A stretch of DNA of 64,000 nucleotides from Candidatus Omnitrophota bacterium. Lineage in GTDB: Bacteria > Hinthialibacterota > Hinthialibacteria > Hinthialibacterales > JAKPRU01. The notes under the pieces were generated by a model. The model did no database searches and was not told the DNA's origin. It was given only the letters and a program-made list of their open reading frames with translations. This document shows positions 19 to 46,238 of this stretch, in pieces. The DNA is taken from NCBI GenBank assembly GCA_029570205.1, contig JAKQSI010000082.1:9409-73408 (forward strand), written 5' to 3'. Every line of letters starts with the position of its first letter. Positions within the stretch are counted from its first letter, which is position 1. The position numbers were made by a program, and so were the translations under genes.

Positions 19-632
19 ACAGGCAGGGACGCCTGTCCCACCAGTAGGCCAGGCGTCCCTGCCTGTCCCACCAGTAGGCCAGGCGTCCCTGCCTGGCAGC
101 CACCGTAGGCCAGGCGTCCCTGCCTGGCATCTACCCAGTAGGCCAGGCGTCCCTGCCTGGCAGCCACCGTAGGCCAGGCGTCCCTGCCTGGCAGCCACCG
201 TAGGCCAGGCGTCCCTGCCTGGCATCTACCCAGTAGGCCAAGGCGTCCCTGCCTGGCAGCCACCGTAGGCCAGGCGTCCCTGCCTAGCATCTACCCAGTA
301 GGCCAGGCGTCTCTGCCTGGCAGCCACCCGTAGGCCAGGCGTCCCTGCCTGGCAGCCACCAGTAGGCCAGGCGTCCCTGCCTGGCAGCCACCGTAGGCCA
401 GGCGTCCCTGCCTGTCCCACCAGTAGGCCAGGCGTCTCTGCCTGGCAGCTACCAGTAGGCCAGGCGTCTCTGCCTGGCAGCTACCAGTAGGCCAGGCGTC
501 TCTGCCTGGCAGCCACCCAGTAGGCCAGGCGTCTCTGCCTGGCAGCCACCCAGTAGGCCAGGCGTCCCTGCCTGGCAGCCACCCAGTAGGCCAGGCGTCT
601 CTGCCTGGCATCTACGGCGTCCCTGCCTGGCA
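19..632. repeat. Tandem array of ~30-34 bp hairpin repeats (family A)
   Basis: About 18 near-identical direct units run from position 44 to 610, preceded by one inverted copy (19-38) and followed by a partial copy. Each unit reads roughly CAGTAGGCCAGGCGTCCCTG then CCTGGCAGCCAC. Its core is a hairpin with stem GCCAGGC, loop GTCCCT and stem GCCTGGC. Units vary by C/T changes in the loop (GTCCCT or GTCTCT) and by short linker variants (AGCCACC, ATCTACC, TCCCACC). The linkers are repeated rather than unique, so this is not a CRISPR. The array keeps several reading frames open and yields spurious low-complexity proteins. The same unit recurs at 34112-34195, 45390-45629 and 63863-64000. Confidence 0.95.
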
Positions 633-23862: not shown

Positions 23863-25332
23863 TCAGGGGTTCGTTTCTTCAAGTCTGCGGAAGAACCGCG
23901 CGATTTTCTCTTTCTCCGCCTCGGTCGGCCCGAAGAAATATCCTTCCCCAAAGAAGACAAGGAAAGACACGAAGAGCTCGCAGCCGGTGTAAATGGCGAA
24001 CTGGTCGGTCAGCGGTCGCAGAATAGCAAATGTGGCAAGACCCGCAATCACCGAGGCCAGCGCCCCCCGCCAGGAGGATCGCTTCGACAGCATCCCAAAC
24101 AGCAGGGGGATAGTCACCGGCCCCAGCAACGCGCCAAACCACTGGATTGTGACGTTGAATGCCCTCTCCATGGATGGATTCGACAAGACCAGCATGGCGC
24201 TGGCAATCATCAGGAATCCCAGGACAGTGGTGGCGACCAAACCCACTCGAAGAAGATGCAGATTAGGAGCATTCGGATTGAAGTTCCGCTGGTAGATATC
24301 CTTGGTGATTACCGCAGCCAGGGAGTTCAGATCACTGGAGATCATGGACATGGTCGCGGAGAACATGGAAATGACAAGCAGCCCGATGAGACCCGGCGCA
24401 AGACCTTGGAGCACTTTTGCCGCGACAAGGATGTAAGCATGTTCCGGGCTGGCAATCTCCTTCACATCCAGCAGGATCGGCGCGGCCCATGCGGGGATGA
24501 ACAGGACAATGGGATAGACCAGGAAAAGCAGAGCAGACAACAGCGCCGCTTTTTGAGCATCCCGTGGTTTCCCAATGGAATAAAATCGCTGCGCTAATCC
24601 CCAGGTTCCACCGTTGTAACTCAAGGTGGCCACAATCAGATACACAAACACCATCTCCGCCGGAATTGCGCTGCTGAAAAGTCGCCCGTTTTCCGGCGGA
24701 AGTTGTTCCCACATTGCATCCCAGCCGCCGACTGCATTCAGCACCAGGGGGACCAGAAATACCGTAAAGCCCACCTGAACGATGAACTGCGCCATATCGG
24801 TCAGCATGGTGGCCCACAGGCCGCCGATCAGAACATAAATAATCGTGACCAGGCCAACACTGATAATCACCGGTCCGATGGGCCAGCCGGTGCAGACATT
24901 CACCACAACAGAAAGGGCATACAGTTTCACCCCTTCATCGATGAACTTGACGCCGATTCCGCCCCACGCAATGACCTGCCGAATCAGGTTATTGTATCGT
25001 TCTTCCAGATATTCCACCGCCGAGAAGACTTTCAGTTTGGCCCACCGTGGCGCCCACACAAACGCCCCGATCAGCATTGCGCAAAAAGTCGGAATCGCAA
25101 ACAGGGACCAGATACTGAACCCGACATTGTATGCCTGGCTGGCAAATCCGACAAACACCACGGCGCTGTATCCGGCAACATGGTGCGAGATCGCCGCAAT
25201 CCACCAGGGCACACCGTGCCCACCGGCGAAATAATCCTCCACTGTTTTTACTTTTGTTTTCGCAATAAATCCCAGGACAAGCATGGCAATTCCATAGATG
25301 ACAACAACAGCATAATCAGTAAAAGTCAGCAT
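23863..25332 (-). CDS. Sodium:solute symporter (SSS family)
   Basis: This 489-residue transporter has about 13 membrane helices. It opens with DYAVVVIYGIAMLVLGFIAK, then the typical TVEDYFAGG segment and a long loop with VFSAVEYLEERYNNLIRQ. The sodium site region matches the family motif GLxALLVxSMFSATMS, here GLIGLLVISMFSATMSMISS with STLNS-like serines (SDLNSLAAVI). Members import sugars, inositol, amino acids or sialic acid with sodium. It is the last gene of the minus-strand operon, seven bases after the DegT gene, so uptake of the product of the secreted protein in the same operon is the likely role. Confidence 0.92.
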   Translation of the reverse strand: MLTFTDYAVVVIYGIAMLVLGFIAKTKVKTVEDYFAGGHGVPWWIAAISHHVAGYSAVVFVGFASQAYNVGFSIWSLFAIPTFCAMLIGAFVWAPRWAKLKVFSAVEYLEERYNNLIRQVIAWGGIGVKFIDEGVKLYALSVVVNVCTGWPIGPVIISVGLVTIIYVLIGGLWATMLTDMAQFIVQVGFTVFLVPLVLNAVGGWDAMWEQLPPENGRLFSSAIPAEMVFVYLIVATLSYNGGTWGLAQRFYSIGKPRDAQKAALLSALLFLVYPIVLFIPAWAAPILLDVKEIASPEHAYILVAAKVLQGLAPGLIGLLVISMFSATMSMISSDLNSLAAVITKDIYQRNFNPNAPNLHLLRVGLVATTVLGFLMIASAMLVLSNPSMERAFNVTIQWFGALLGPVTIPLLFGMLSKRSSWRGALASVIAGLATFAILRPLTDQFAIYTGCELFVSFLVFFGEGYFFGPTEAEKEKIARFFRRLEETNP

Positions 25333-25339
25333 ATCGCAT

Positions 25340-26572
25340 TTACCTGTCGGAGGCGCATCGCCTGATTTTCTCGATCGATTCGATAATCGCGTTAATGGAC
25401 TCGTTCTTGGCCAGTAATGCGCGCTGATGGATCATCACCACACAGCGGCTTGCCTCTTCCGCATTCGGGCAGTCCTGAACGCGGAATGTTCGTCCCGGCG
25501 CTCCCGCCACGCTTTTCCTGTCCGGGTTGAACATGGATGTCCGGTAAAGCGTTCGCGGATAGAGCTCGCCTGCAAGGTCTTTTGTGTTGAGCTCCGCGTT
25601 GAGAGTCGCGACAAAATCGGTTCGTGACATGCCCCCGAATTGCTCCGCATCGTAAGCAAACACAAACAAGTGGTAACCGTGCCGACCCGTTCCGGGCGCC
25701 CAGGGGAAGGTTCGAATGCCCGGAATTTGCGCAAGACTTTCGAGCAACCGCTTGCCGGCTTTGGCCCGCCGCTCGGTTTGTTCTTCCAGCCGGTCAAATT
25801 GAGCGAGCAGGATTGCCGCCTGAATCTCGGTCAGAGTGGCGTTTGTCGCCAAGCGATGGTGGTCATACCACTCGCCGCCCCGGATTCGGCCGAACTTGGA
25901 GAGTCCGAAATCCAGCAACTCCGCCAGCTCGGAATTATTCGTAACCACCATGCCGCCTTCGCCGGACGTCATGTTCTTGAACTGCTGGAAACTGTACGAA
26001 CCGCAGTCACCGAAAGAGCCGACTTTTTTGCCGTTCAGAATTGCGCCGTGACTCTGGGCGCAATCCTCGATCACTTTCAGGCCGTGTTTTTGCGCAATTT
26101 CCAGAATGCGCGGCATATCCGCCGGTTGGCCTGCCGTATGGACAACGATGATCGCTTTTGTTTGCGGGGTGACTGCCTGGGCGACGGCATCCGGGTCCAG
26201 GCAGAGGGTTTCACTATGGATATCGGCAAACACCGGCGTTGCGCCGACATTCAGCACAGACATGGGGACCGCTACAAACGTATATGGCGGGATAATTACC
26301 TCTTCTCCCTCGCCGATCTCGAACGCCCGCAGCGAGAGTTCCAGGGTGACTGTTCCGTTCGCCATTGGGACGCCGTACTTGCAGTCACAATACGCCGCAA
26401 ATTGTTCGGCGATCTGCTGAAGCATCGGTCCCCGTGTGGTTCCGCCCCAATAGGGGCTGTCCAGCACGGCGCGGATATTATCGAGTTCCTCCTCGCCCCA
26501 GATGGGCCATTTGGGCCAAGTTCCTTGAAACGTGGGTGTACCGCCATGAATTGCAAGTTGATTCATTTTCAT
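25340..26572 (-). CDS. DegT/DnrJ/EryC1/StrS-family aminotransferase-like protein
   Basis: This 410-residue member of the PLP-dependent DegT family has the characteristic opening LAIHGGTP, the central IIPPYTFVA, the VIEDCAQSHG aspartate strand, and the active-site lysine in SFQQFKNMTSGEGG. Family members transaminate or dehydrate nucleotide-activated or free keto sugars. The LAIxGG subclass is common next to Gfo/Idh/MocA dehydrogenases, as here. Its ATG overlaps the stop of the secreted-protein gene (ATGA), and it is followed closely by the symporter. A paralogue lies at 30948-32174. Confidence 0.92.
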   Translation of the reverse strand: MKMNQLAIHGGTPTFQGTWPKWPIWGEEELDNIRAVLDSPYWGGTTRGPMLQQIAEQFAAYCDCKYGVPMANGTVTLELSLRAFEIGEGEEVIIPPYTFVAVPMSVLNVGATPVFADIHSETLCLDPDAVAQAVTPQTKAIIVVHTAGQPADMPRILEIAQKHGLKVIEDCAQSHGAILNGKKVGSFGDCGSYSFQQFKNMTSGEGGMVVTNNSELAELLDFGLSKFGRIRGGEWYDHHRLATNATLTEIQAAILLAQFDRLEEQTERRAKAGKRLLESLAQIPGIRTFPWAPGTGRHGYHLFVFAYDAEQFGGMSRTDFVATLNAELNTKDLAGELYPRTLYRTSMFNPDRKSVAGAPGRTFRVQDCPNAEEASRCVVMIHQRALLAKNESINAIIESIEKIRRCASDR

Positions 26573-29500
26573 TTGACTATTTCCACCTGAACCGGAGTGT
26601 CAATTTCACGCCGTAAGTCTTTTAAGAAAGCGTACCAATCGTCGCCGTTCTTGAACCGCCCGTCACGGGTCCATCCCCCGACAATGATCAGATCCAGCGT
26701 GGCTTCACCCGGACTCTGATACCACAGCAATTTCTCTCCGCTCCCATCCTCTTGCTGAACAAGACCCTCCGACGGATAGAGAATCGCCAGTCCGACTTCA
26801 CCGGCCCCCATATCCTTCTGTTCCCCCCAGCACCAGAGGATGCGATTCTCCGGGTCCGAGTGTGCCTGTTCGCCCACGATAGTCAGCCCGGGGCCGAATT
26901 CAAAGGGATTTCCATCGAGACTGCGGACTTTCGTGCTGAGCCGGCATTCGCGTCGCCCGGCCCATGCCACCACTCGCGTGGACGCTTGAAACTGCCGGTT
27001 GCCGAGCTTCCAATGCGGCATGACAATATCCACCAGGGTCCGCACCGGCCCATCCGCGAGGATTCGGAAGTGGGGTTCCGAACGAATATCCCGGTTCCCG
27101 CTTTCGCCGTAAGAATCCACCTGATACGGTTTCCCCTCCTGCCGGATATTCAGCCCGCCCAGTCCCGAAGTCGGGCCGACACTGAGAATATCCATGCCGT
27201 TCTTCTGCATGACATGAGTATTGACCCAGGGGGATTCCATTTCCTGCATGAACAGACAGGGTCTCTTCTTGCCGAACACGTCGATTTTGCCGAAATAGGA
27301 ACGGAATGCGCACAGATCGCTTTCCCAGCTGACGTAGAATTTCTGACCAACCTGCGCATGGGCGCGAGGAGTGTAGGCCTGCTGCGCGTCCATATCCCCG
27401 TATCGAATGGAGACCGCTCGTGTCTCTTTCGGGCCGAGAGAAACCTGGAAGAATATCTCATCTTTCACACTGTCTCCGTCCGGATCGTCCATCTGGCTGG
27501 GCAGGATTTTTCCGTCGGAATCCACAACGCGAAACGGACTCGTTTTAAAATCTTCAGGAAGATCGGCCAATCGAATCGTGACCGGAACGGAGGTGCGCGC
27601 ACGGTCCAGCGGATTGGCGATCCGAACCCCGATTTTCTTCGGTTCGGAGTGTTTCGGTTTCGGCAGTTCCTGTACCTGCTCCAGAAGGGCAATAACTCCT
27701 TCCATGTATCCCCGGTTGAAAGCGTTATCCAGGGCCTCTCCCAGGGTGGACAAGTCGGCACGACGTTCCGGGATAGAGGTTGCCGCCGCCATTTCCTCCA
27801 AACGCACAAGAACCGCGTGCATGTAATATTCTTTCAGCAGGTCGGTCACATAACGCAGACGCTCCTGACTCTTGATTTCGCCCAGATGCGCCTCCATTTC
27901 TTCGACCGCTGTCGGAAAGATGGTATCCGCCGCCGAGATTCCCTTTTGCCGAATGGATGCTATCACACTCTGATTGGCGGAGATGACTTTCGGAAGCAGG
28001 TCCAGGTAAAAACTTTGAATCGTCGCGTAGTCCCAGGGAAGCATTTGTACCTGCTGGACATGTTCAGCAACCCGCTCTGGGCTGCCCCGGTTGTCCAGGT
28101 TGACCTCCCATCGGTCAAAGAATCCGTCGCCGTTGGAATCAAAACATTTTGTTTCCGCGAATTTCTGTTCGGACCATAGGTAACCGTGTTCGATCCAGCC
28201 CCACTCTGCTCCAAAACAGTGGATTCGCTGGTCGATCGGGGAGTAATAAACCTGCCGTTGGTTGGAAGGGCGGCAATCGAATTCACGACGCATGTTCCAG
28301 CGCCAGGGCGGGCCGCCGGCATTCGCCAGCGTAATGCGTATCCAATCCTCTTCGCTCCAGAATATCCCTTCCCAGCGGCGATTGCAGTCGAACTCATCCC
28401 AGGAGAATCCTGTCAGGTCCGCCGTGTAATTGTCCGCCAGGGCAAGGATTTCGTTGTGGGAAATCCGCTGCACGGTCTGGGGCGGACGGCGTTTCGGATT
28501 GAAATAATCGAATCCCTGGTAGGGCAACGACCCCACCAGCGTGAACCCGAAGTCGTAATCCAGCTGATTCTTCTCGTTGCTGTCGTTGTCGATATCGAAA
28601 CTGTATCGGACATTGCTTACTTGAACCGGTTTGATCGGATTCGGCCCCCAAATCTCGTCATAGCTGTTTGCGTTGTTTTCCGGTTCCGGAACCGCGCTGA
28701 CCCGCACGACGCCTTCGGACCAGCCATCCCCGTCCAGGTCATGGAACGAAAAGGGGCATTCCGAATAGGGCAGCCAAGTGTCGGTCAGCGGATCGTACTT
28801 CTGAAGAAAGAAAATATCGTCGCCGTACATATCTGAGGCAAACGCTTCCCGGTATTCGTAATTCGCCACAGACCACATCCGGTTGTCGTCGTCAACGTCT
28901 TCCCAGAACCATCCCCACACCAACTCGCCATTGCGGTAATAGCGCAGGTCCATTTCATCCGCATCGCCATCCCCATCGTTGTCGATCCGGTCCAGCATCC
29001 GGTCGATTTCCCCGTTCGCGTCGTAGTCGGCAAGATAGCAATCGCTGTCTTCATCGCCGGTGATAGCCTCGGCGGTCATATCGTCATCGTCGTCAATCAC
29101 CCGCACCGCAATCGGGAAGAGCGGGCATTCGGCGGCCTGTTTGGGATTGGCAAACTCGCCGCCCCGACCGGGAGCGCGCCGAGCGGTTTCGTCAAGGATC
29201 AGTTCATCCGAGTCGCCGTCTCCGTCCACATCAACCCTCTCTTTGAGCCGTTTGAGATTGAGCAACAGGATATAGGCATCACCGCTCACATCTTGAATTT
29301 GTGAGTTTGCGCTTGCCAGACCGTTCGGGCTGACTTGAAGCGCTTTTCCGTTTAAGGTTACGGTGATGTTCTCGTCCGCATCCAACTGCGCGACAAGCCA
29401 GATTCCGTCGTCTTCTTTGGCCGTGTGCGATTTCCAGGAAACCTTTTTATTGTTCGACTCAAGTAATTGGTCCCGGTGAGGCTCCTCGGAATCGAATCGG

Positions 29501-29682
29501 TTTTCCCAGTGGTAGCCCTCCCATTTCAGGAAATCTCCCTCGGTCAACTCCGCTGTGCCTTGCCACTCCGTATCGTCGCCTTGCCAATACACCAGCATAT
29601 CCAGAGTGACTTTATCCCCATAAGCCGCAGGCAGACCGCAGAAAGCGAGAATAAGAATCAAGACCGTGTGGAGACGCATCAT
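26569..29682 (-). CDS. Large secreted Asp-rich protein with C-terminal DUF4861-like region
   Basis: This 1037-residue protein opens with a signal peptide (MMRLHTVLILILAFCGLPAA). Residues about 145-560 hold many calcium-loop-like motifs: DVDGDGDSDE, DNDGDGDADEMD, DLDGDGWSE, DIDNDSNEKN and DSNGDGFFDRWE. A helical section spans about 560-680. From about 685 a beta-rich region (IRLADLPEDF, ILPSQMDDPDGDSVKDEIFF, SEPHFRILADGPVRTLVDIV) resembles DUF4861, which occurs with polysaccharide-degrading enzymes. No catalytic residue set is certain. A strong site AAGGAG lies five bases before the ATG. ATGA overlaps on both sides couple it to the oxidoreductase upstream and the DegT gene downstream. A shorter paralogue lies at 32399-34048. 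Confidence 0.82.
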   Translation of the reverse strand: MMRLHTVLILILAFCGLPAAYGDKVTLDMLVYWQGDDTEWQGTAELTEGDFLKWEGYHWENRFDSEEPHRDQLLESNNKKVSWKSHTAKEDDGIWLVAQLDADENITVTLNGKALQVSPNGLASANSQIQDVSGDAYILLLNLKRLKERVDVDGDGDSDELILDETARRAPGRGGEFANPKQAAECPLFPIAVRVIDDDDDMTAEAITGDEDSDCYLADYDANGEIDRMLDRIDNDGDGDADEMDLRYYRNGELVWGWFWEDVDDDNRMWSVANYEYREAFASDMYGDDIFFLQKYDPLTDTWLPYSECPFSFHDLDGDGWSEGVVRVSAVPEPENNANSYDEIWGPNPIKPVQVSNVRYSFDIDNDSNEKNQLDYDFGFTLVGSLPYQGFDYFNPKRRPPQTVQRISHNEILALADNYTADLTGFSWDEFDCNRRWEGIFWSEEDWIRITLANAGGPPWRWNMRREFDCRPSNQRQVYYSPIDQRIHCFGAEWGWIEHGYLWSEQKFAETKCFDSNGDGFFDRWEVNLDNRGSPERVAEHVQQVQMLPWDYATIQSFYLDLLPKVISANQSVIASIRQKGISAADTIFPTAVEEMEAHLGEIKSQERLRYVTDLLKEYYMHAVLVRLEEMAAATSIPERRADLSTLGEALDNAFNRGYMEGVIALLEQVQELPKPKHSEPKKIGVRIANPLDRARTSVPVTIRLADLPEDFKTSPFRVVDSDGKILPSQMDDPDGDSVKDEIFFQVSLGPKETRAVSIRYGDMDAQQAYTPRAHAQVGQKFYVSWESDLCAFRSYFGKIDVFGKKRPCLFMQEMESPWVNTHVMQKNGMDILSVGPTSGLGGLNIRQEGKPYQVDSYGESGNRDIRSEPHFRILADGPVRTLVDIVMPHWKLGNRQFQASTRVVAWAGRRECRLSTKVRSLDGNPFEFGPGLTIVGEQAHSDPENRILWCWGEQKDMGAGEVGLAILYPSEGLVQQEDGSGEKLLWYQSPGEATLDLIIVGGWTRDGRFKNGDDWYAFLKDLRREIDTPVQVEIVK

Positions 29683-30719
29683 CTTGCTCCTTCCAGATCC
29701 TTGAGTGAAATCGCTTTTCGTTCACGGGAGGACTCTTCGGCGGCGAAAGCGACGTATGCCGCTACGAGACCGCATCGAAGGTTGGCATCCGGTTGTTTCC
29801 CTTCGTTGATCGCATCCACAAACGCCTGATCCTGACGCCCGAAAGACTCCATGCGGACCGGCGCGAGGTAGTCGCCACGAAAGTCGAGCGGCGGCTGCTC
29901 GTATAGCGTTTCCCATTTCTCATCCGCACACAGTTGCATTTTTCCGTAAGCATCCACATCCAGCAGTCCACGTTCTCCTACAATGCGGGCACGGAACGCC
30001 GAGTTCGGAAATCCCGGTTTCGGCGATTCCCAGCAGCACCAGAAATTCGCCACGATATCGCCGCTGAGAACCATCATTACCATCGACATGGTTTCCACTT
30101 CGACTCCGGTCAGCGAGTTTCGGCAGTGCGCAAATACCGTTTCGATCTCTTCGCCCGTGAACCATCGGATCCGGTCGATGGAGTGGCAGCCATGTCCGAA
30201 CAGTGTGCCGAGGTTGTGCTGATCGCTCTGCCATTTCGGCAAACCTGCCAGCCCGTGCCGGTCATGTTGCATTTCCAGGATTTGAAGGACCTTGCCGATC
30301 CGCCCGGAGGCGATGATCTCTTTGGCGATTTCATTGGCACGGCGGTAGCGTTGTGTGAATGCCACTTGGCAAATCACCCCGGATTCCTCCAGTGATTTCT
30401 CCAGTTGATGACATTCGCCAAGAGTGGCGCCAACCGGCTTTTCGATCAACACATGCTTTCCGGCTTCCATGGCCAGGATGGCATGACTTGCATGAAGGTA
30501 ATGCGGTGTGGCGACAACCACCGCATCGACATCCTTGCGGGCCACCAGTTCCTCAGCGGATGCCACGCAATCGATTCCGTATTCCTTCGCCAGCGCCGGG
30601 GCACGACTTCCACACGCCACCGCGCGCAATGACGCCCCGTTTACGTATTTGGAGAATGCCTCCGAATGGGTCCGTCCCATAAATCCGCTGCCGATTACTC
30701 CAATTCCGATGTTGTCCAC
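29679..30719 (-). CDS. Gfo/Idh/MocA-family oxidoreductase
   Basis: This 346-residue cytoplasmic NAD(P)-dependent sugar dehydrogenase-like protein has Rossmann motif IGVIGSGFMGRTHSEAF, the conserved EKP motif in HVLIEKPVG, and a C-terminal substrate domain containing the HGCHSIDRIRWF block with its catalytic-type histidine. It has no signal peptide, unlike the member at 14053. The start is a GTG at 30719 with GGAGAAG eight bases upstream. It is the first gene of the four-gene minus-strand operon and overlaps the secreted-protein gene by ATGA. Pairing with a DegT enzyme suggests oxidation then transamination of a sugar. Confidence 0.92.
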   Translation of the reverse strand: MDNIGIGVIGSGFMGRTHSEAFSKYVNGASLRAVACGSRAPALAKEYGIDCVASAEELVARKDVDAVVVATPHYLHASHAILAMEAGKHVLIEKPVGATLGECHQLEKSLEESGVICQVAFTQRYRRANEIAKEIIASGRIGKVLQILEMQHDRHGLAGLPKWQSDQHNLGTLFGHGCHSIDRIRWFTGEEIETVFAHCRNSLTGVEVETMSMVMMVLSGDIVANFWCCWESPKPGFPNSAFRARIVGERGLLDVDAYGKMQLCADEKWETLYEQPPLDFRGDYLAPVRMESFGRQDQAFVDAINEGKQPDANLRCGLVAAYVAFAAEESSRERKAISLKDLEGAR

Positions 30720-30794
30720 AATGCTTCTCCGTTTATTGTTCGTGAATTGTCAAGATTGTCTTACCTTGTTCCGACAGAAATCGATCGCGCATCC

Positions 30795-30900
30795 GTCATT
30801 GCGAGCGAAGCGTGGCAATCTCGTCGCCGTGCTGCGCAAACAAGAGATCGCCACGTTCCGGCTCCTTCGCAGACTCAGGAGCCGAAACTCGCGATGACGG
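30795..30900. repeat. Dispersed repeat, family B
   Basis: Contains TCATTGCGAGCGAAGCGTGG then CAATCTC, and ends in inverted form with AACTCGCGATGACGG. Located upstream of the oxidoreductase operon, in the stretch 30720-30947, where no gene is seen. The same repeat type lies within the glycosyltransferase gene at 48857-49082. Confidence 0.75.
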
Positions 30901-30947
30901 CAAAGGATTTCTTTCACCTCTGGGAGTTCCCATCGGTCTCATACGTC

Positions 30948-32174
30948 CTATCTATCCCATTCCAGATTCTCCGCAACCTTAGCCACTCCACCGGCGATAT
31001 CCCGGATATCGTCGTCCGAATAGCTTTCATGAAACCAGATGGTGATGAATTCCTTCATGGCCTTTTCAGCTACCGGGCAGAGACCCTCGGCATAGATTCG
31101 ATCCTGAATGGGGAATCCCGATGTCCCGAAGGTCCTTTTTTCGGTGAGCGCCTTGGAACAGAGGTACATCGGCACTCCCGTGTATCCGGGTATGTTGGGG
31201 ATTCCTTCCTCTTTGAGTGTCTCGCCAAACTTCACAGAGGACCAGTGGGTTATGCGAAGCGGGTACAGCCAGAAACTATGCTCCGATTCGGGAAGAGAGG
31301 CTGCCGGAAGAACCCCGTCAATCGGCTGCAGAAGAGACGAGAGCAGCCGACCGATGTGTTTGCGACGCTGCACAACGCCGTCTACCTTGTCCAACTGGCA
31401 CAACCCCACCGCTGCGGTCAGTTCCGACATGCGGTAATTCGGCCCCAGGAACTGGTAACAGCGTGGTCCCCAGCCCGAACGGGCAAATCCCTTGTCCACA
31501 AACAGACGCATTCGCTCCCAGTAATCGTCCCGGTTGCTCACCACCATGCCGCCATCGCCTGTGCTCAGATGCTTGGATTCCTGAAAGCTGAAACAGCCGA
31601 GGTCCCCGATAGTTCCAAGCCAGCGTCCTTTGTATTTTGTTCGGTGTGCCTGAGCGCAATCCTCAATGACCGGAATCCCTTTCGGTCTTGCAATTTCCAG
31701 GACGGCGTCCACATCGGCGGCCGTGCCGAACAGGTGGACAAGAATGATAGCCCGTGTGCGACAGGTGATTTTCTTTTCGATATCCGCCGGGTCCATGGTG
31801 AGTGTATCGGGACGGACATCGGCAAAAACCGGGATCGCATTTTGCTGAAGGATCGGGCCGATGGACCCGAAATCGGTGATGGGAGCCGTAATGATTTCGT
31901 CCCCCGGATTGGGATCGACGGTTCCGACGGCGGTGTGGATTGCCGCCGTGCCGGAGGTCGCCGCTCGTGCGTATTTCATGCCGTACGCCTCGGCAAATTT
32001 CCGCTCAAACTCCGCGACCAGCTTGCCGTTGAATTGAAACAGTGTCTGTGACCGAAGCGCCTCGGTGACACGGGCAATCTCCGGCTCACCATACATCACT
32101 CTTCGGGGAAACGGCTCCCGGCGACACGGTTCGCCGCCGTGTATCGCAAGCTTTTCTGATGGATTGGCGTTCAT
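30948..32174 (-). CDS. DegT/DnrJ/EryC1/StrS-family aminotransferase-like protein (paralogue)
   Basis: This 408-residue paralogue of the protein at 25340 opens with KLAIHGGEP. It has VIEDCAQAH and an active-site lysine in SFQESKHLSTGDGG. It differs in the N-terminal catalytic loop and is only moderately similar to the other copy, so it probably handles a different substrate or step. The start at 32174 is chosen because AAAAAGGAGC lies eight bases upstream; the longer reading frame has none. It stands alone, separated from the oxidoreductase operon by a family B repeat, but faces the same way. Confidence 0.92.
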   Translation of the reverse strand: MNANPSEKLAIHGGEPCRREPFPRRVMYGEPEIARVTEALRSQTLFQFNGKLVAEFERKFAEAYGMKYARAATSGTAAIHTAVGTVDPNPGDEIITAPITDFGSIGPILQQNAIPVFADVRPDTLTMDPADIEKKITCRTRAIILVHLFGTAADVDAVLEIARPKGIPVIEDCAQAHRTKYKGRWLGTIGDLGCFSFQESKHLSTGDGGMVVSNRDDYWERMRLFVDKGFARSGWGPRCYQFLGPNYRMSELTAAVGLCQLDKVDGVVQRRKHIGRLLSSLLQPIDGVLPAASLPESEHSFWLYPLRITHWSSVKFGETLKEEGIPNIPGYTGVPMYLCSKALTEKRTFGTSGFPIQDRIYAEGLCPVAEKAMKEFITIWFHESYSDDDIRDIAGGVAKVAENLEWDR

Positions 32175-32256
32175 AAATCGTGCTCCTTTTTTACGCACCT
32201 TACCAATCGGTTTGCATTGTGGTGTTTACAGAGATTCTTATCCTTCTATTTCAGGA

Positions 32257-32398: not shown

Positions 32399-34048
32399 TC
32401 ACTTGAGTTTTCCCGACAGCTCGGCAAACGCTTCGTATTCTCCACGACCGTACACGGCGATCTCTTCGGGACTCAAGGGTCTCCCTTGATCTGCCAGAAA
32501 TCTCCGAAGTTCCGCAAAGAGGACCTCCCGCGTCATGTCCTGATAATATCGTTTCGCCTCCAGGCTGGAGGCCAGTGTTTTGGCAGCATGATATTCTTTC
32601 GGCATGGTTCGGGTGAACCATTCCTCAATGCGGGTCGGTTCGCGACGTCCCATGACCGTTTTCATCGCTTCGATAACTTCCCGGTTGGCTTTCAATGTCT
32701 TTTTCAATTGGTTCACGTAAAACGAATGCAGGTTCTCATAATTTTCAATCGACACATTCACAACCGGCAACCGCTCGTCCTGGAATTCCCGGTCGATGGA
32801 ACCATCTGCGTCAAGATCGACTTGAAAAACATCGAAATACCCATCTTCATTGGTGTCTTTATAGAAAAACACCATATCTTCTTTCCCGTCGAAGTTGTAA
32901 TCCACGTACAGCTCGCCGTGTTCCGCCCCAAACTGGTGCAGGCGCCCGTCGATAGGCCACCAATACAACATATACTTCCCGCTGAAGTCGGCATCGTATT
33001 CCCGGCGGAAATTGCATTTCGGAAGACGATACCCGCCTACACCCTCCCAGCGCTCGTGGTGTTTTTCCACCTCATCGGCCGGATTGGCCGTATTGTCCGC
33101 CTCATCCCAGATAAACATGTTTTTCTTCCAGGTCATTGCGTTCGCCGTTTCTCGGCCTTTTTCCCAGGCGATATGGCCGTTCCGCGCTTTTCCGTGGCGA
33201 AACCTGGGCATGGTAATAACGTCCGGGGGAATGAGCGCAGCCCCCTCGCAATTGAATGAGAAATCGTAATCGTGTGGATTCCCTTTCTTCGCATCGTTGT
33301 CCACATCGAAACTGTACCGGAGGAAATTGGTTTCCCTGTCCTCGCCTGAAAACCGGATTGCAATCTCTGAACACTGATCGCCGTCGATATCATAGAAACA
33401 GAACGGATTCTCAAACTTGGGGAACAGTTCGCCGGTCTGCACATCGAAATCGTACATACAGAACAGTTCGTCGCCGTTGAAATCGGAAAGCCACTGGCAG
33501 CCCGGCTGGTCGTAGGCGTAATTCCGGGTGTACCAGAGGCGGTTGTCATCGCCATGGTCTTCGCAGACAATGGCAATGGTGCGACCGTAGAAATCCTTGT
33601 CGTACAGGACCAGGAGATCCACATCGTTGTCGCCGTCCTTGTCCTCGTAATCCACAACACAATCAATCACTCCATCACCATACCAATCCGCAACCCAGCA
33701 GTCGCTGTCCGTATCGCCCTCAGCATCGGATTTCATATCGTCATCCTCGTCGATCACTTTCACAAGAATCGGCTGGATGGTGTGTTTGGGGTCATTGTCG
33801 TTGAAGATCAGGATATCCGGGTCGCCGTCGCCGTTCTCATCAATCGTGAATTTCTCGCCCGGCTTCAGTTCCTTCGCCTTCGCGAGGACTTCATCGCCGA
33901 AAAAAATCGCAGCGCCGGCCATTTCGCGCATTCGAGCGTTGGTATCCTGGAAATCAGCCCCGGATGACGGGATCGGATTCAGAAACAGGGCAAACCCTGC
34001 GACCGTAAGGATGAGCATGGCCCTGCGGGGCCGTACCCGTCCCGTCAT
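32399..34048 (-). CDS. Secreted Asp-rich protein, short paralogue
   Basis: This protein of about 549 residues aligns with the Asp-rich middle of the 1037-residue protein at 26569. Both share a VIDEDDDM/VIDDDDDM block, then DSDCWVADWYGDGVIDCVVD against DSDCYLADYDANGEIDRMLD, and RYSFDVDND against RYSFDIDND. This copy lacks the DUF4861-like C-terminus. The start at 34048 gives a good signal peptide (RVRPRRAMLILTVAGFALF); 34018 is an alternative. Codons before that are made of family A and B repeats, so the 5' region has been rebuilt by repeats. It diverges from the isomerase gene at 34472. Function unknown. Confidence 0.75.
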   Translation of the reverse strand: MTGRVRPRRAMLILTVAGFALFLNPIPSSGADFQDTNARMREMAGAAIFFGDEVLAKAKELKPGEKFTIDENGDGDPDILIFNDNDPKHTIQPILVKVIDEDDDMKSDAEGDTDSDCWVADWYGDGVIDCVVDYEDKDGDNDVDLLVLYDKDFYGRTIAIVCEDHGDDNRLWYTRNYAYDQPGCQWLSDFNGDELFCMYDFDVQTGELFPKFENPFCFYDIDGDQCSEIAIRFSGEDRETNFLRYSFDVDNDAKKGNPHDYDFSFNCEGAALIPPDVITMPRFRHGKARNGHIAWEKGRETANAMTWKKNMFIWDEADNTANPADEVEKHHERWEGVGGYRLPKCNFRREYDADFSGKYMLYWWPIDGRLHQFGAEHGELYVDYNFDGKEDMVFFYKDTNEDGYFDVFQVDLDADGSIDREFQDERLPVVNVSIENYENLHSFYVNQLKKTLKANREVIEAMKTVMGRREPTRIEEWFTRTMPKEYHAAKTLASSLEAKRYYQDMTREVLFAELRRFLADQGRPLSPEEIAVYGRGEYEAFAELSGKLK

Positions 34049-34090
34049 CGCGAGCCTCGCTCCGGCGGGGCCGGTGATTGAAGAAAGAAA
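34021..34090. repeat. Dispersed repeat, family B, at the gene 5' end
   Basis: The segment GTCCCGTCATCGC ... GGCGGGGCCGGTGATT ... AAGAAAGTG is shared almost base for base with 48895-48955. It overlaps the proposed start codon of the secreted protein. Confidence 0.7.
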
Positions 34091-34111
34091 GTGTGTTTCC
34101 CGCCCTTCTTT

Positions 34112-34195
34112 GCCGGGCAGGGACGCCTGGCCTACTGGGGAGCTGCCGGGCAGGGACGCCTGGCCCACTGGTGGGACAGGCGTCCCTGCCTGTCG
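34112..34195. repeat. Hairpin repeats, family A (2 inverted + 1 direct unit)
   Basis: Two units in reverse orientation (GGCAGGGACGCCTGGCC) and one in direct orientation (GACAGGCGTCCCTGCCTGTC), immediately upstream of the secreted-protein gene. The rest of 34196-34471 holds no recognisable gene or strong promoter. Confidence 0.9.
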
Positions 34196-34471
34196 ATTCT
34201 CACGGGAGAGAACTGTCTTAAAAGTCATGTTTTTCACTTTCTGATCTTGATGATGATCCAAAATAACGGACAATGGGAACATGAGATTCCTTTTCAGTCA
34301 ACCGCAACCGGAAAAAGAATGGGTGGTCCAGGGTAGACAGAACGCGAAAGGTGGGCGAAAGTGAACAGGGAACCGCTGCCGGTTCGCAAGGCATCTCCCT
34401 GCCGAGCGCACGGCGCAATACCTGGGAAAAAACGTCAGACCAGGACGATTCGTAGAAAGGAGAATGAAACA

Positions 34472-35506
34472 ATGCCAAGGTTATTCCATGTCAGTCTCGA
34501 GGGTGGTCAACACGGAGGAAAAGGATTCGAGGGATTTCTGGACTTCGCTCAGAAAGCCGGAGCGGAAGGCGCGCAGCCGTCCAACTATATGTTTGATAAA
34601 GGCAATGGATTCCGGCCCGTTGCCGAGGTGAAAGAGGCATTTGCTAAGCGAGGGCTGAAATTGGACGGTATTTCCACCCACTGTGTTTTCTGGGTGCATA
34701 CCACCGCCTGGACCGGTTCGGTCACCATGCGTCCGTTTCTCTCGCCGGAAGTGGCCAAAATGAGTCCTGAGAAAATCGAACAATGGGCCGAGGATTACCT
34801 CCTCCGGTTTATGGATTACGCCGCCGAGCTCGGAGTAAAAATCCTTCCGATGTTCTGGGGTGTCGTATACGGATGGGAAATCGCTACGGGATACCCGTGG
34901 GGTTTCTTCGCCGGACCGGGATATGACTTAATCAAGGAAGGTCTGGAGCGGTTCGTCAAGAAAACTGCCAAACTGCGCCAGAAAGCCAATTCCCTGGGAA
35001 TCTATCTCTGCCATGAGATTCATCCGGGAACGGGGGCAATGTGCGCCGATGATTTTCGGATGCTGGTGGATGCCTGCGACGGCGACAAATGCCTCGCCGT
35101 CAACGTTGATCCCTCCCACTGCTGGGAAGGCGAGGGTTGGGAGACCCGGTTCCTGAAAGTGGCGGACCGCTGCTATGGCTGCCATGTCAAGAACCATGTT
35201 GTCCGACCGAACATTCCCAGGCGCGCCATCCAGGGCGATTGGCAGAAGCGAGGGATGCAATTCACGGATTTGAATACGGGCGATATCAACCTGATGCGCT
35301 TCACAGAACTGATGATCCAGATCGGGTACAAAGACCGCTACTGCAAGGTCATGGGCACACAGACTGCGCCGCTGGTGGTTGAGGCGGAAAGCGCCTATCG
35401 TGATCTGGATGCCACCAGCGCAGGCGGTGTGCAGTATGTCAGGGAAAACCTGTGCTTCCCGATCGCTACAGCCTCGTTCGAGGACGGCCTCGGGGGTTCG
35501 GCCTGA
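34472..35506 (+). CDS. Sugar phosphate isomerase/epimerase family protein (xylose isomerase-like TIM barrel)
   Basis: This 344-residue protein has the TIM-barrel xylose isomerase-like pattern. Metal-ligand candidates lie in order in ICHEIHPGTGA-type segment LCHEIHPGT (Glu), NVDPSHCWEGEG (Asp/His), GCHVKNHV (His) and near the C-terminus. Members interconvert keto and aldo sugars or epimerise them. ATG 34472 is chosen for AAAGGAG upstream. It neighbours the Gfo/Idh and DegT genes, consistent with a sugar-metabolism island. A good terminator follows at 35536. It diverges from the short secreted paralogue. Confidence 0.85.
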   Translation: MPRLFHVSLEGGQHGGKGFEGFLDFAQKAGAEGAQPSNYMFDKGNGFRPVAEVKEAFAKRGLKLDGISTHCVFWVHTTAWTGSVTMRPFLSPEVAKMSPEKIEQWAEDYLLRFMDYAAELGVKILPMFWGVVYGWEIATGYPWGFFAGPGYDLIKEGLERFVKKTAKLRQKANSLGIYLCHEIHPGTGAMCADDFRMLVDACDGDKCLAVNVDPSHCWEGEGWETRFLKVADRCYGCHVKNHVVRPNIPRRAIQGDWQKRGMQFTDLNTGDINLMRFTELMIQIGYKDRYCKVMGTQTAPLVVEAESAYRDLDATSAGGVQYVRENLCFPIATASFEDGLGGSA

Positions 35507-45256: not shown

Positions 45257-45389
45257 CGCCTTCTCTCCTTACCACTTGCTGTGCGATAGTACCAATCAAA
45301 ACGGGGAAAGGTCCAGAGCGGAGAGGGTTTAAGAGGAAAGGGGGAGAAGAAACCATGTGCAAACGACAGGCACGGAGACAATGACTTAC

Positions 45390-45629
45390 CCAGTAGGCCA
45401 GGCGTCCCTGCCTGTCACCCCAGTAGGACAGGCGTCCCTGCCTGTCACCCCAGTAGGACAGGCGTCCCTGCCTGTCATCCCGGGCGGTCAGGCGTCCCTG
45501 CCTGTCATCCCAGTAGGACAGGCGTCCCTGCCTGTCACCCCAGTAGGTCAGGCGTCCCTGCCTGTCATCCCGGGCGGACAGGCGTCTCTGCCTGTCACCC
45601 CAGTAGGACAGGCGTCTCTGCCTGTCACC
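45390..45629. repeat. Eight-unit, 30-bp hairpin array (family A)
   Basis: Eight units of exactly 30 bp, each reading CAGTAGGACAGGCGTCCCTG then CCTGTCACCC, with variants CGGGCGG at 45480 and 45570. The core hairpin is GACAGGC/GCCTGTC. Because 30 is a multiple of 3 the array encodes a repeating VGQASLP peptide in one frame and stays open. It abuts a truncated membrane-protein gene at 45693. Downstream TTCTTTGTGCCTTTGTGGC is itself repeat-like. Confidence 0.95.
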
Positions 45630-45692
45630 CATCTTGTTTATTCTTTGTGCCTTTGTGGCTTTGTGGTGATCTCCTTCTCCGCGTTCCGATTC

Positions 45693-46238
45693 ATGTTCCT
45701 CTCCACCATCGCGCTCCTGCCTCTGCTTGGAGGAACTGCGCCCGCCAGGATCACCCCCCCCTGTGTCTCCCCCAATCTGGGCGGAGCGCTTTGTGCGCGC
45801 ATTCAATCCGCCTTCTCTTTCCTTCTCCTCATTGGCTACTTTCTCCTGCTGACTCTAAACAAGCCCGTTTACAGCCGCGACTGGTTCGATCTGAAAAAGG
45901 CAACGGCGTTTCTCAATGAAACCCACGCAGAAGGGAATGTCTTCAATGATTTCTCATTCGGTGGAAGGATTATTTACGACTGCTATCCACGCCTGAAAGT
46001 ATTCGCGGATGGGCGCATCGGTCCTTTTGAGAAAGACATTTTTCCCCTGTACGAAGAAGTATTTCGAGGTACACGGGACCGGGCCATGGAGATTCTCGAC
46101 CGCTACCGAATCGACTGGATTCTCATACAGGAGTCGCGCGCCCCCGAATGGATGCAGTCCGAGAAGAGACTTCATGAGTTATACCGGCACAGTGGAATTG
46201 TTATTTTTCGGCTGGATAGAGACGGAACGGAGACATAA
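45693..46238 (+). pseudogene. C-terminal remnant of a membrane protein (GT-C-like), N-terminus missing
   Basis: About 181 codons remain. Two hydrophobic segments are followed by the soluble tail FNDFSFGGRIIYDCYPRLKV FADGRIGPF (about residues 85-112), which matches the C-termini of larger multi-helix membrane proteins with NxFxFGGYLIxxxPxxKVFxDGR. The helices expected upstream are absent, and the hairpin array sits where they should be. ATG 45693 is a possible start. It lies 5 bases before the next glycosyltransferase gene. It may still be translated, but I think it is broken. Confidence 0.6.

Follow-up and report, generated by a model that had tools for sequence, protein, structure and literature searches.

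A gene cluster encoding secreted Asp-rich and DUF4861 domains as a candidate uptake and processing system for acidic glycans in Candidatus Omnitrophota

Introduction

The closest described counterparts of the gene cluster analyzed here are certain polysaccharide utilization loci (PULs), aminocyclitol pathways and a non-hydrolytic pathway for glycosides. PULs with heparinase II/III lyases, GH88 enzymes and glucuronoyl esterases resemble it in that an exported glycan-type protein, an importer and sugar enzymes are encoded together. In addition, such enzymes recur in other genomes beside genes for DUF4861, either on its own or fused to an Asp-rich domain that lies outside the Pfam families and is termed NDOM here. 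The cluster differs from these PULs in having an aminotransferase and a Gfo/Idh/MocA oxidoreductase (Gfo) at its core and in lacking a SusC/SusD pair, none of which is found among its seven genes, as well as a recognizable lyase or glycoside hydrolase. Aminocyclitol pathways, which combine an inositol dehydrogenase with a scyllo-inosose aminotransferase, provide the nearest solved relatives of Gfo and of DegT1, one of the two DegT-type aminotransferases of the cluster. However, the active-site motif and the score of the Gfo depart from those of the inositol enzymes, and the pair belongs to a coupled gene run that also encodes an importer and a secreted protein. The non-hydrolytic 3-keto-glycoside pathway (PMC13273386) shares with the cluster a Gfo-type dehydrogenase and a TIM barrel, the latter only distantly like the hydratase of that pathway, whereas a lyase or 3-keto hydrolase is missing from the cluster and aminotransferases are present. 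Here, we describe the cluster in a stretch of 64,000 nucleotides from a Candidatus Omnitrophota bacterium, referred to as the window, and compare it with related regions in other genomes.

Results

Organization of the gene cluster

Six genes are clustered on the minus strand of the window, encoding a sodium:solute symporter (SSS), DegT1, the secreted protein LONG, Gfo, DegT2 and the protein SHORT (Table 1). An earlier note on this DNA had described four minus-strand genes, joined by ATGA overlaps or a 7-base gap, as a coupled operon. Their coordinates were confirmed and the junctions were read from the sequence: Gfo/LONG (AGATGATG) and LONG/DegT1 (AAATGAAA) are 4-bp ATGA overlaps, and DegT1 and SSS are separated by 7 bp. 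When contig pieces from two genomes of the same genus are combined, the order TIM barrel (divergent)-SHORT-DegT2-Gfo-LONG-DegT1-SSS proves to be kept, with the TIM barrel gene in the same place in stretch L044. Overlaps, short gap and gene order within the genus thus support an operon. Pfam matches and alignment to LONG also confirm the genes that had been reported to flank it, namely a further DegT gene, the short paralogue of the secreted protein and a xylose isomerase-like gene. All seven genes are under purifying selection, with between-species dN/dS values of 0.05-0.16. A promoter and terminator scan yielded sites no more frequently than in shuffled sequences.

Table 1 Features of the gene cluster in the window.
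Feature	Position	Strand	Length	Basis
SSS, sodium:solute symporter (SSS/SSF)	23863..25332	-	489 aa	Pfam SSF 1.2e-34
DegT1, PLP aminotransferase	25340..26572	-	410 aa	Pfam DegT 1.8e-94
LONG, signal peptide + NDOM + DUF4861	26569..29682	-	1037 aa	Pfam DUF4861 2.7e-57
Gfo/Idh/MocA oxidoreductase	29679..30719	-	346 aa	Pfam GFO_IDH_MocA 2.1e-26
DegT2-Gfo gap with inserted interspersed repeat	30720..30947	.		same-genus comparison
DegT2, PLP aminotransferase	30948..32198	-	416 aa	Pfam DegT 3.7e-88
SHORT, NDOM-only paralogue of LONG	32399..34282	-	627-aa ORF	alignment to LONG
Xylose isomerase-like TIM barrel, divergent	about 34472..35506	+		Pfam AP_endonuc_2 4.3e-18

The gap between DegT2 and Gfo measures 228 bp in the window, compared with about 60 bp in the same-genus stretch L046, where the repeat is missing. 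This interspersed repeat reads CGTCATYGCGAG..., a pattern with five matches in the window versus 0.6 in shuffles. A further sequence, GGGACGCCTGGCC, occurs eleven times on the minus strand in window positions 59-568, mostly at steps of 30-65 bp.

The secreted proteins LONG and SHORT

LONG carries a signal peptide (MMRLHTVLILILAFCGLPAAYG), read from the sequence, followed by NDOM at about residues 111-671 (about 560 residues) and by DUF4861 at residues 688-1033. The DUF4861 (PF16153) match spans the whole profile (1-380) with 194.9 bits against a curated cut-off of 22.3. The C-terminal match proposed in the earlier note therefore stands, but "DUF4861-like end" understates what is a full-length domain. 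LONG resembles the DUF4861/BT3233 family in that its C-terminal 350 residues match the entire Pfam profile. It differs in the fusion of DUF4861 to NDOM. In addition, it remains far under the cut-off (81.5 vs 320 bits) of the only named equivalog for DUF4861 in NCBIfam, NF058564 ("BT3233 family polysaccharide utilization protein"). NDOM has no significant match in Pfam or the PDB, and PDB profile searches with NDOM and DUF4861 returned chance-level matches only. Altogether, a full match of the secreted protein to a characterized enzyme family was not found in Pfam, PDB and NCBIfam. AlphaFold2 models of the DUF4861 domain alone (pLDDT 35.3) and of NDOM with four alignment rows (pLDDT 30.2) were unusable. 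A literature search restricted to open papers returned no mention of DUF4861 and nothing relevant on the gene combination.

SHORT aligns with the NDOM part of LONG only (35% identity, E 5.8e-41), in line with its description as a short paralogue. It is also of the exported type, as judged by its signal peptide, and its true start probably lies near residue 88, before MLILTVAGFALFL. At the 5' end of its ORF (34020-34282), a repeat separates the conserved MT(F/L)K start from the signal peptide; a different repeat occupies the same position in L044, constituting a between-species difference.

An alignment of 16 NDOM sequences contains 48 invariant columns, many of them Asp. The calcium-loop-like motif D-x-[DN]-x-[DN]-x3-[DES] occurs six times in the first 680 residues of LONG (0.45 in shuffles) and seven times in SHORT (0.32 in shuffles), and these counts were reached in none of 2000 composition-preserving shuffles. 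The signal peptide and calcium-loop-like repeats originally ascribed to the secreted protein are thus both present, the motifs far above chance. Assignment of the Asp-rich repeats to EF-hand or FG-GAP was rejected, the best E-values among the 16 NDOM sequences being 0.23 and 4.1, respectively. Elsewhere in the window, a 293-aa ORF on the plus strand (45357-46238) without Pfam match showed weak similarity to SHORT (5e-7), which did not recur at 1e-6 and probably reflects Asp composition.

Distribution of NDOM and its association with DUF4861

Profile searches detected NDOM in 10 of the 14 genomes of the window's phylum, in 27 of 68 genomes of a second phylum and in 3 of 64 genomes of a third, the latter two phyla having been chosen since an NDOM-bearing relative had turned up there. 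The domain therefore spans at least three phyla, mostly as a fusion with DUF4861, which is seen for 28 of the 39 sequences in the phylogenetic tree. Relatives were absent from the viral contigs searched. In the tree, the NDOM of LONG groups with stand-alone NDOM proteins of other families, and that of SHORT falls on the opposite side, among DUF4861-bearing proteins (support 100/100 in both cases). It follows that DUF4861 has changed its NDOM partner, being attached to the opposite paralogue in the window's genus. Both kinds of NDOM are encoded within a few kilobases in each of L034 and L035, and the two NDOM proteins and DUF4861 may function as one set. In the third phylum, a separate DUF4861 gene adjoins an NDOM-DUF4861 gene (L079:6717-11190 and L119:6764-10873).

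Genes in the neighbourhood of NDOM and DUF4861

The surroundings of NDOM or DUF4861 genes were analyzed in 38 stretches, and 37 stretches at arbitrary, not strictly random, positions in the same genome set served as controls. The window's genus contributes four contigs to the 38, and related genomes are not independent. An aminotransferase was encoded in 11 of the 38 loci and in none of the 37 controls (p 0.0003). Without the window's genus, this amounted to 7 of 34 loci versus no control (p 0.004). Glucuronyl-esterase-like hydrolases (nine loci, p 0.001), heparinase II/III-like lyases (seven loci) and amidohydrolases (four loci) were likewise confined to the 38 stretches with none in the 37 controls, while sulfatases were found in three loci versus four controls.

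L043 (9024-11399) encodes a fusion of DUF4861 with an unsaturated glucuronyl hydrolase of family GH88 (2.4e-54 to 1vd5), a part that does not appear in the Pfam scan list at 0.01. L121 and L169, which are overlapping stretches of one contig, encode a heparinase-like lyase, NDOM-DUF4861, an aldose epimerase, a sulfatase, an esterase and a trio of SSS, Gfo and class-III aminotransferase. The same trio is adjoined by a sulfatase and an aldose epimerase in genome G436. A TonB receptor gene lies near the NDOM homologue in L079, and in L107 the NDOM-DUF4861 gene is adjoined by a different DegT gene. The lyases and esterase-like hydrolases near NDOM, the sulfatase and epimerase in G436 and the DUF4861-GH88 fusion point to uronate-containing glycans. 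Relatives of the lyases, sulfatases and esterases were not found in the window, and the substrate class is thus carried over from its relatives. When co-conservation was checked, most of the gene set was found to recur in other genomes and phyla.

The oxidoreductase and the importer

By family alone, Gfo (11 loci vs 4 controls, p 0.05) and SSS (7 loci vs 2 controls, p 0.08) were weakly enriched. As both families are large, with about 37-116 Gfo and about 9-37 SSS candidates per genome, close relatives were sought instead. At most one Gfo candidate per genome reaches E 1e-60. Within the 14-genome phylum of the window, a close Gfo relative occurs in all eight genomes bearing the fusion and in one of the six without it (Fisher p 0.003, kinship ignored); for G009, which belongs to the same genus, only the first residues are available at a contig end (L044). 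The Gfo relative resides within about 10 kb of an NDOM gene in G003, G005, G419, G420, G434 and G436, and a close SSS relative follows the same presence pattern. Outside the window's phylum, a close Gfo relative is absent from the fusion-bearing genomes G157, G458, G290, G388 and G406.

All 15 aligned Gfo sequences have the motif NxGxLxGHxxH in common, the window's sequence reading GHGCH and the 14 relatives GH[GA]xH. The nearest solved structure is inositol dehydrogenase 4mkx, and the best NCBIfam match is inositol 2-dehydrogenase IolG (TIGR04380), the equivalog cut-off of which is not reached (150.2 vs 355 bits). Inositol dehydrogenases usually read DxGxH at the catalytic motif. A motif of this type is not read in the Gfo of the window. 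The nearest solved structures for the SSS protein are vSGLT (2xq2) and the bacterial sodium:solute symporter 5nv9.

Two families of aminotransferases

The best solved relatives of DegT1 are the 2-deoxy-scyllo-inosose aminotransferases 5w71 and 2c7t, aligned over most of its length, and the PDB relatives of DegT2 are sugar aminotransferases. Both proteins show full-length family matches, and their PLP-lysine motifs read SFQQFK (DegT1) and SFQESK (DegT2). The expectation that DegT would be a conserved partner mostly failed, as outside the genus the aminotransferase encoded next to this importer and dehydrogenase is usually of class III. Genes for SSS, Gfo and class-III aminotransferase are adjacent in L035, L039, L162, L165 and L169, the order of this trio is conserved in two phyla, and in several more genomes SSS adjoins a class-III aminotransferase gene. 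A close relative of the class-III enzyme was not found in the three genomes of the window's genus, where DegT1 is in place beside SSS. Because of this pattern, the class-III aminotransferase has likely been exchanged for a DegT type beside the same importer and dehydrogenase.

Discussion

We consider it reasonably probable that the cluster encodes an uncharacterized system for uptake and processing of an acidic glycan of the uronate type. Both NDOM proteins, SHORT and LONG, would be exported, and their calcium-loop-rich domain would serve to bind or process the glycan; the DUF4861 domain would act on the glycan or its fragments. The SSS transporter would then bring the released sugar into the cell together with sodium. 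Inside, Gfo and the PLP aminotransferase would interconvert hydroxyl, keto and amino forms, and the sugar would finally enter central metabolism. The acidic-glycan substrate, the binding of calcium, the inward direction of flow and the order of reactions are what we infer for the system as a whole. A gene for an outer-membrane receptor is absent from the cluster. In the earlier note, a sugar or polysaccharide system had been claimed; its role in processing and uptake is supported, and it may serve either breakdown or modification.

Given that the nearest solved relatives of Gfo (4mkx) and DegT1 (5w71, 2c7t) are inositol dehydrogenase and inosose aminotransferases and that inositol 2-dehydrogenase is the top NCBIfam match of Gfo, the cluster could instead serve cyclitol metabolism. 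The secreted protein would free a cyclitol from a conjugate, and the imported inositol or aminocyclitol would be shuttled between inosamine and inosose by an inositol-type Gfo and a DegT inosose aminotransferase. The large distance of Gfo to the cut-off (150 vs 355 bits) and the clade motif NxGxLxGHxxH, which is unlike the usual DxGxH, make this unlikely. In addition, the window's genome has no iolD match over the cut-off, the only level at which iolD was read, a loose threshold having matched 14 of 14 controls. Five genomes of the phylum do have such a match, but they do not coincide with the system (present in G002, absent from G000 and G011). We also regard as rather improbable a non-hydrolytic 3-keto-glycoside pathway, in which Gfo would oxidize position 3, a lyase would eliminate the aglycone, the TIM barrel would act as hydratase and the aminotransferases would tap the keto sugar. 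It is true that the flanking TIM barrel matches a single PDB entry, the 2-hydroxy-3-keto-glucal hydratase 8ro4 (E 4.8e-6), and that L103 has a 3-keto-disaccharide hydrolase-type gene beside NDOM-DUF4861 (6.9e-37). However, the TIM-barrel match is weak and the gene diverges from the operon, the hydrolase or lyase of the pathway is absent from the cluster, and Gfo matches BT_2159/BT_2158-type 3-dehydrogenases weakly (52 and 44 bits).

Pairs of DegT and Gfo are classic in nucleotide-sugar pathways. Together with the sugar aminotransferases as solved relatives of DegT2, the pairing would fit biosynthesis of a surface amino sugar. Similar to O-antigen pathways, Gfo and DegT would form first a keto and then an amino sugar; the secreted proteins would reside in the envelope. 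We give this little credence, as a sodium-driven importer is part of the same coupled gene run, neither a glycosyltransferase nor a nucleotidyltransferase is found by Pfam among the seven genes, and the neighbours in other genomes are degradative. That expanded gene families without a common task came to lie side by side by chance, for which the large numbers of Gfo and SSS candidates per genome could speak, appears very unlikely after testing. It is opposed by the specific Gfo and SSS relatives, the trio order conserved in two phyla, the phyletic linkage, the comparison with arbitrary regions, the ATGA coupling and purifying selection.

Beyond the acidic-glycan system that we favour for the cluster itself, we tentatively suggest that NDOM-DUF4861 might represent a new secreted, calcium-dependent glycan-processing class at the centre of a dedicated uronate-type sugar system in several little-studied phyla. 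With the same reserve, such a dedicated system might comprise two NDOM proteins, SSS, a Gfo of a separate clade and an aminotransferase whose family can vary, and might take up an unusual sugar and deaminate or aminate it. Both DUF4861 and a so far undescribed Asp-rich domain of wide distribution are tied to a specific combination of genes for transport and sugar conversion that occurs repeatedly, which makes their functions testable. The apparent exchange between class-III and DegT enzymes hints at one common chemical step. This also offers a concrete metabolic hypothesis for lineages of which little beyond metagenomes is known.
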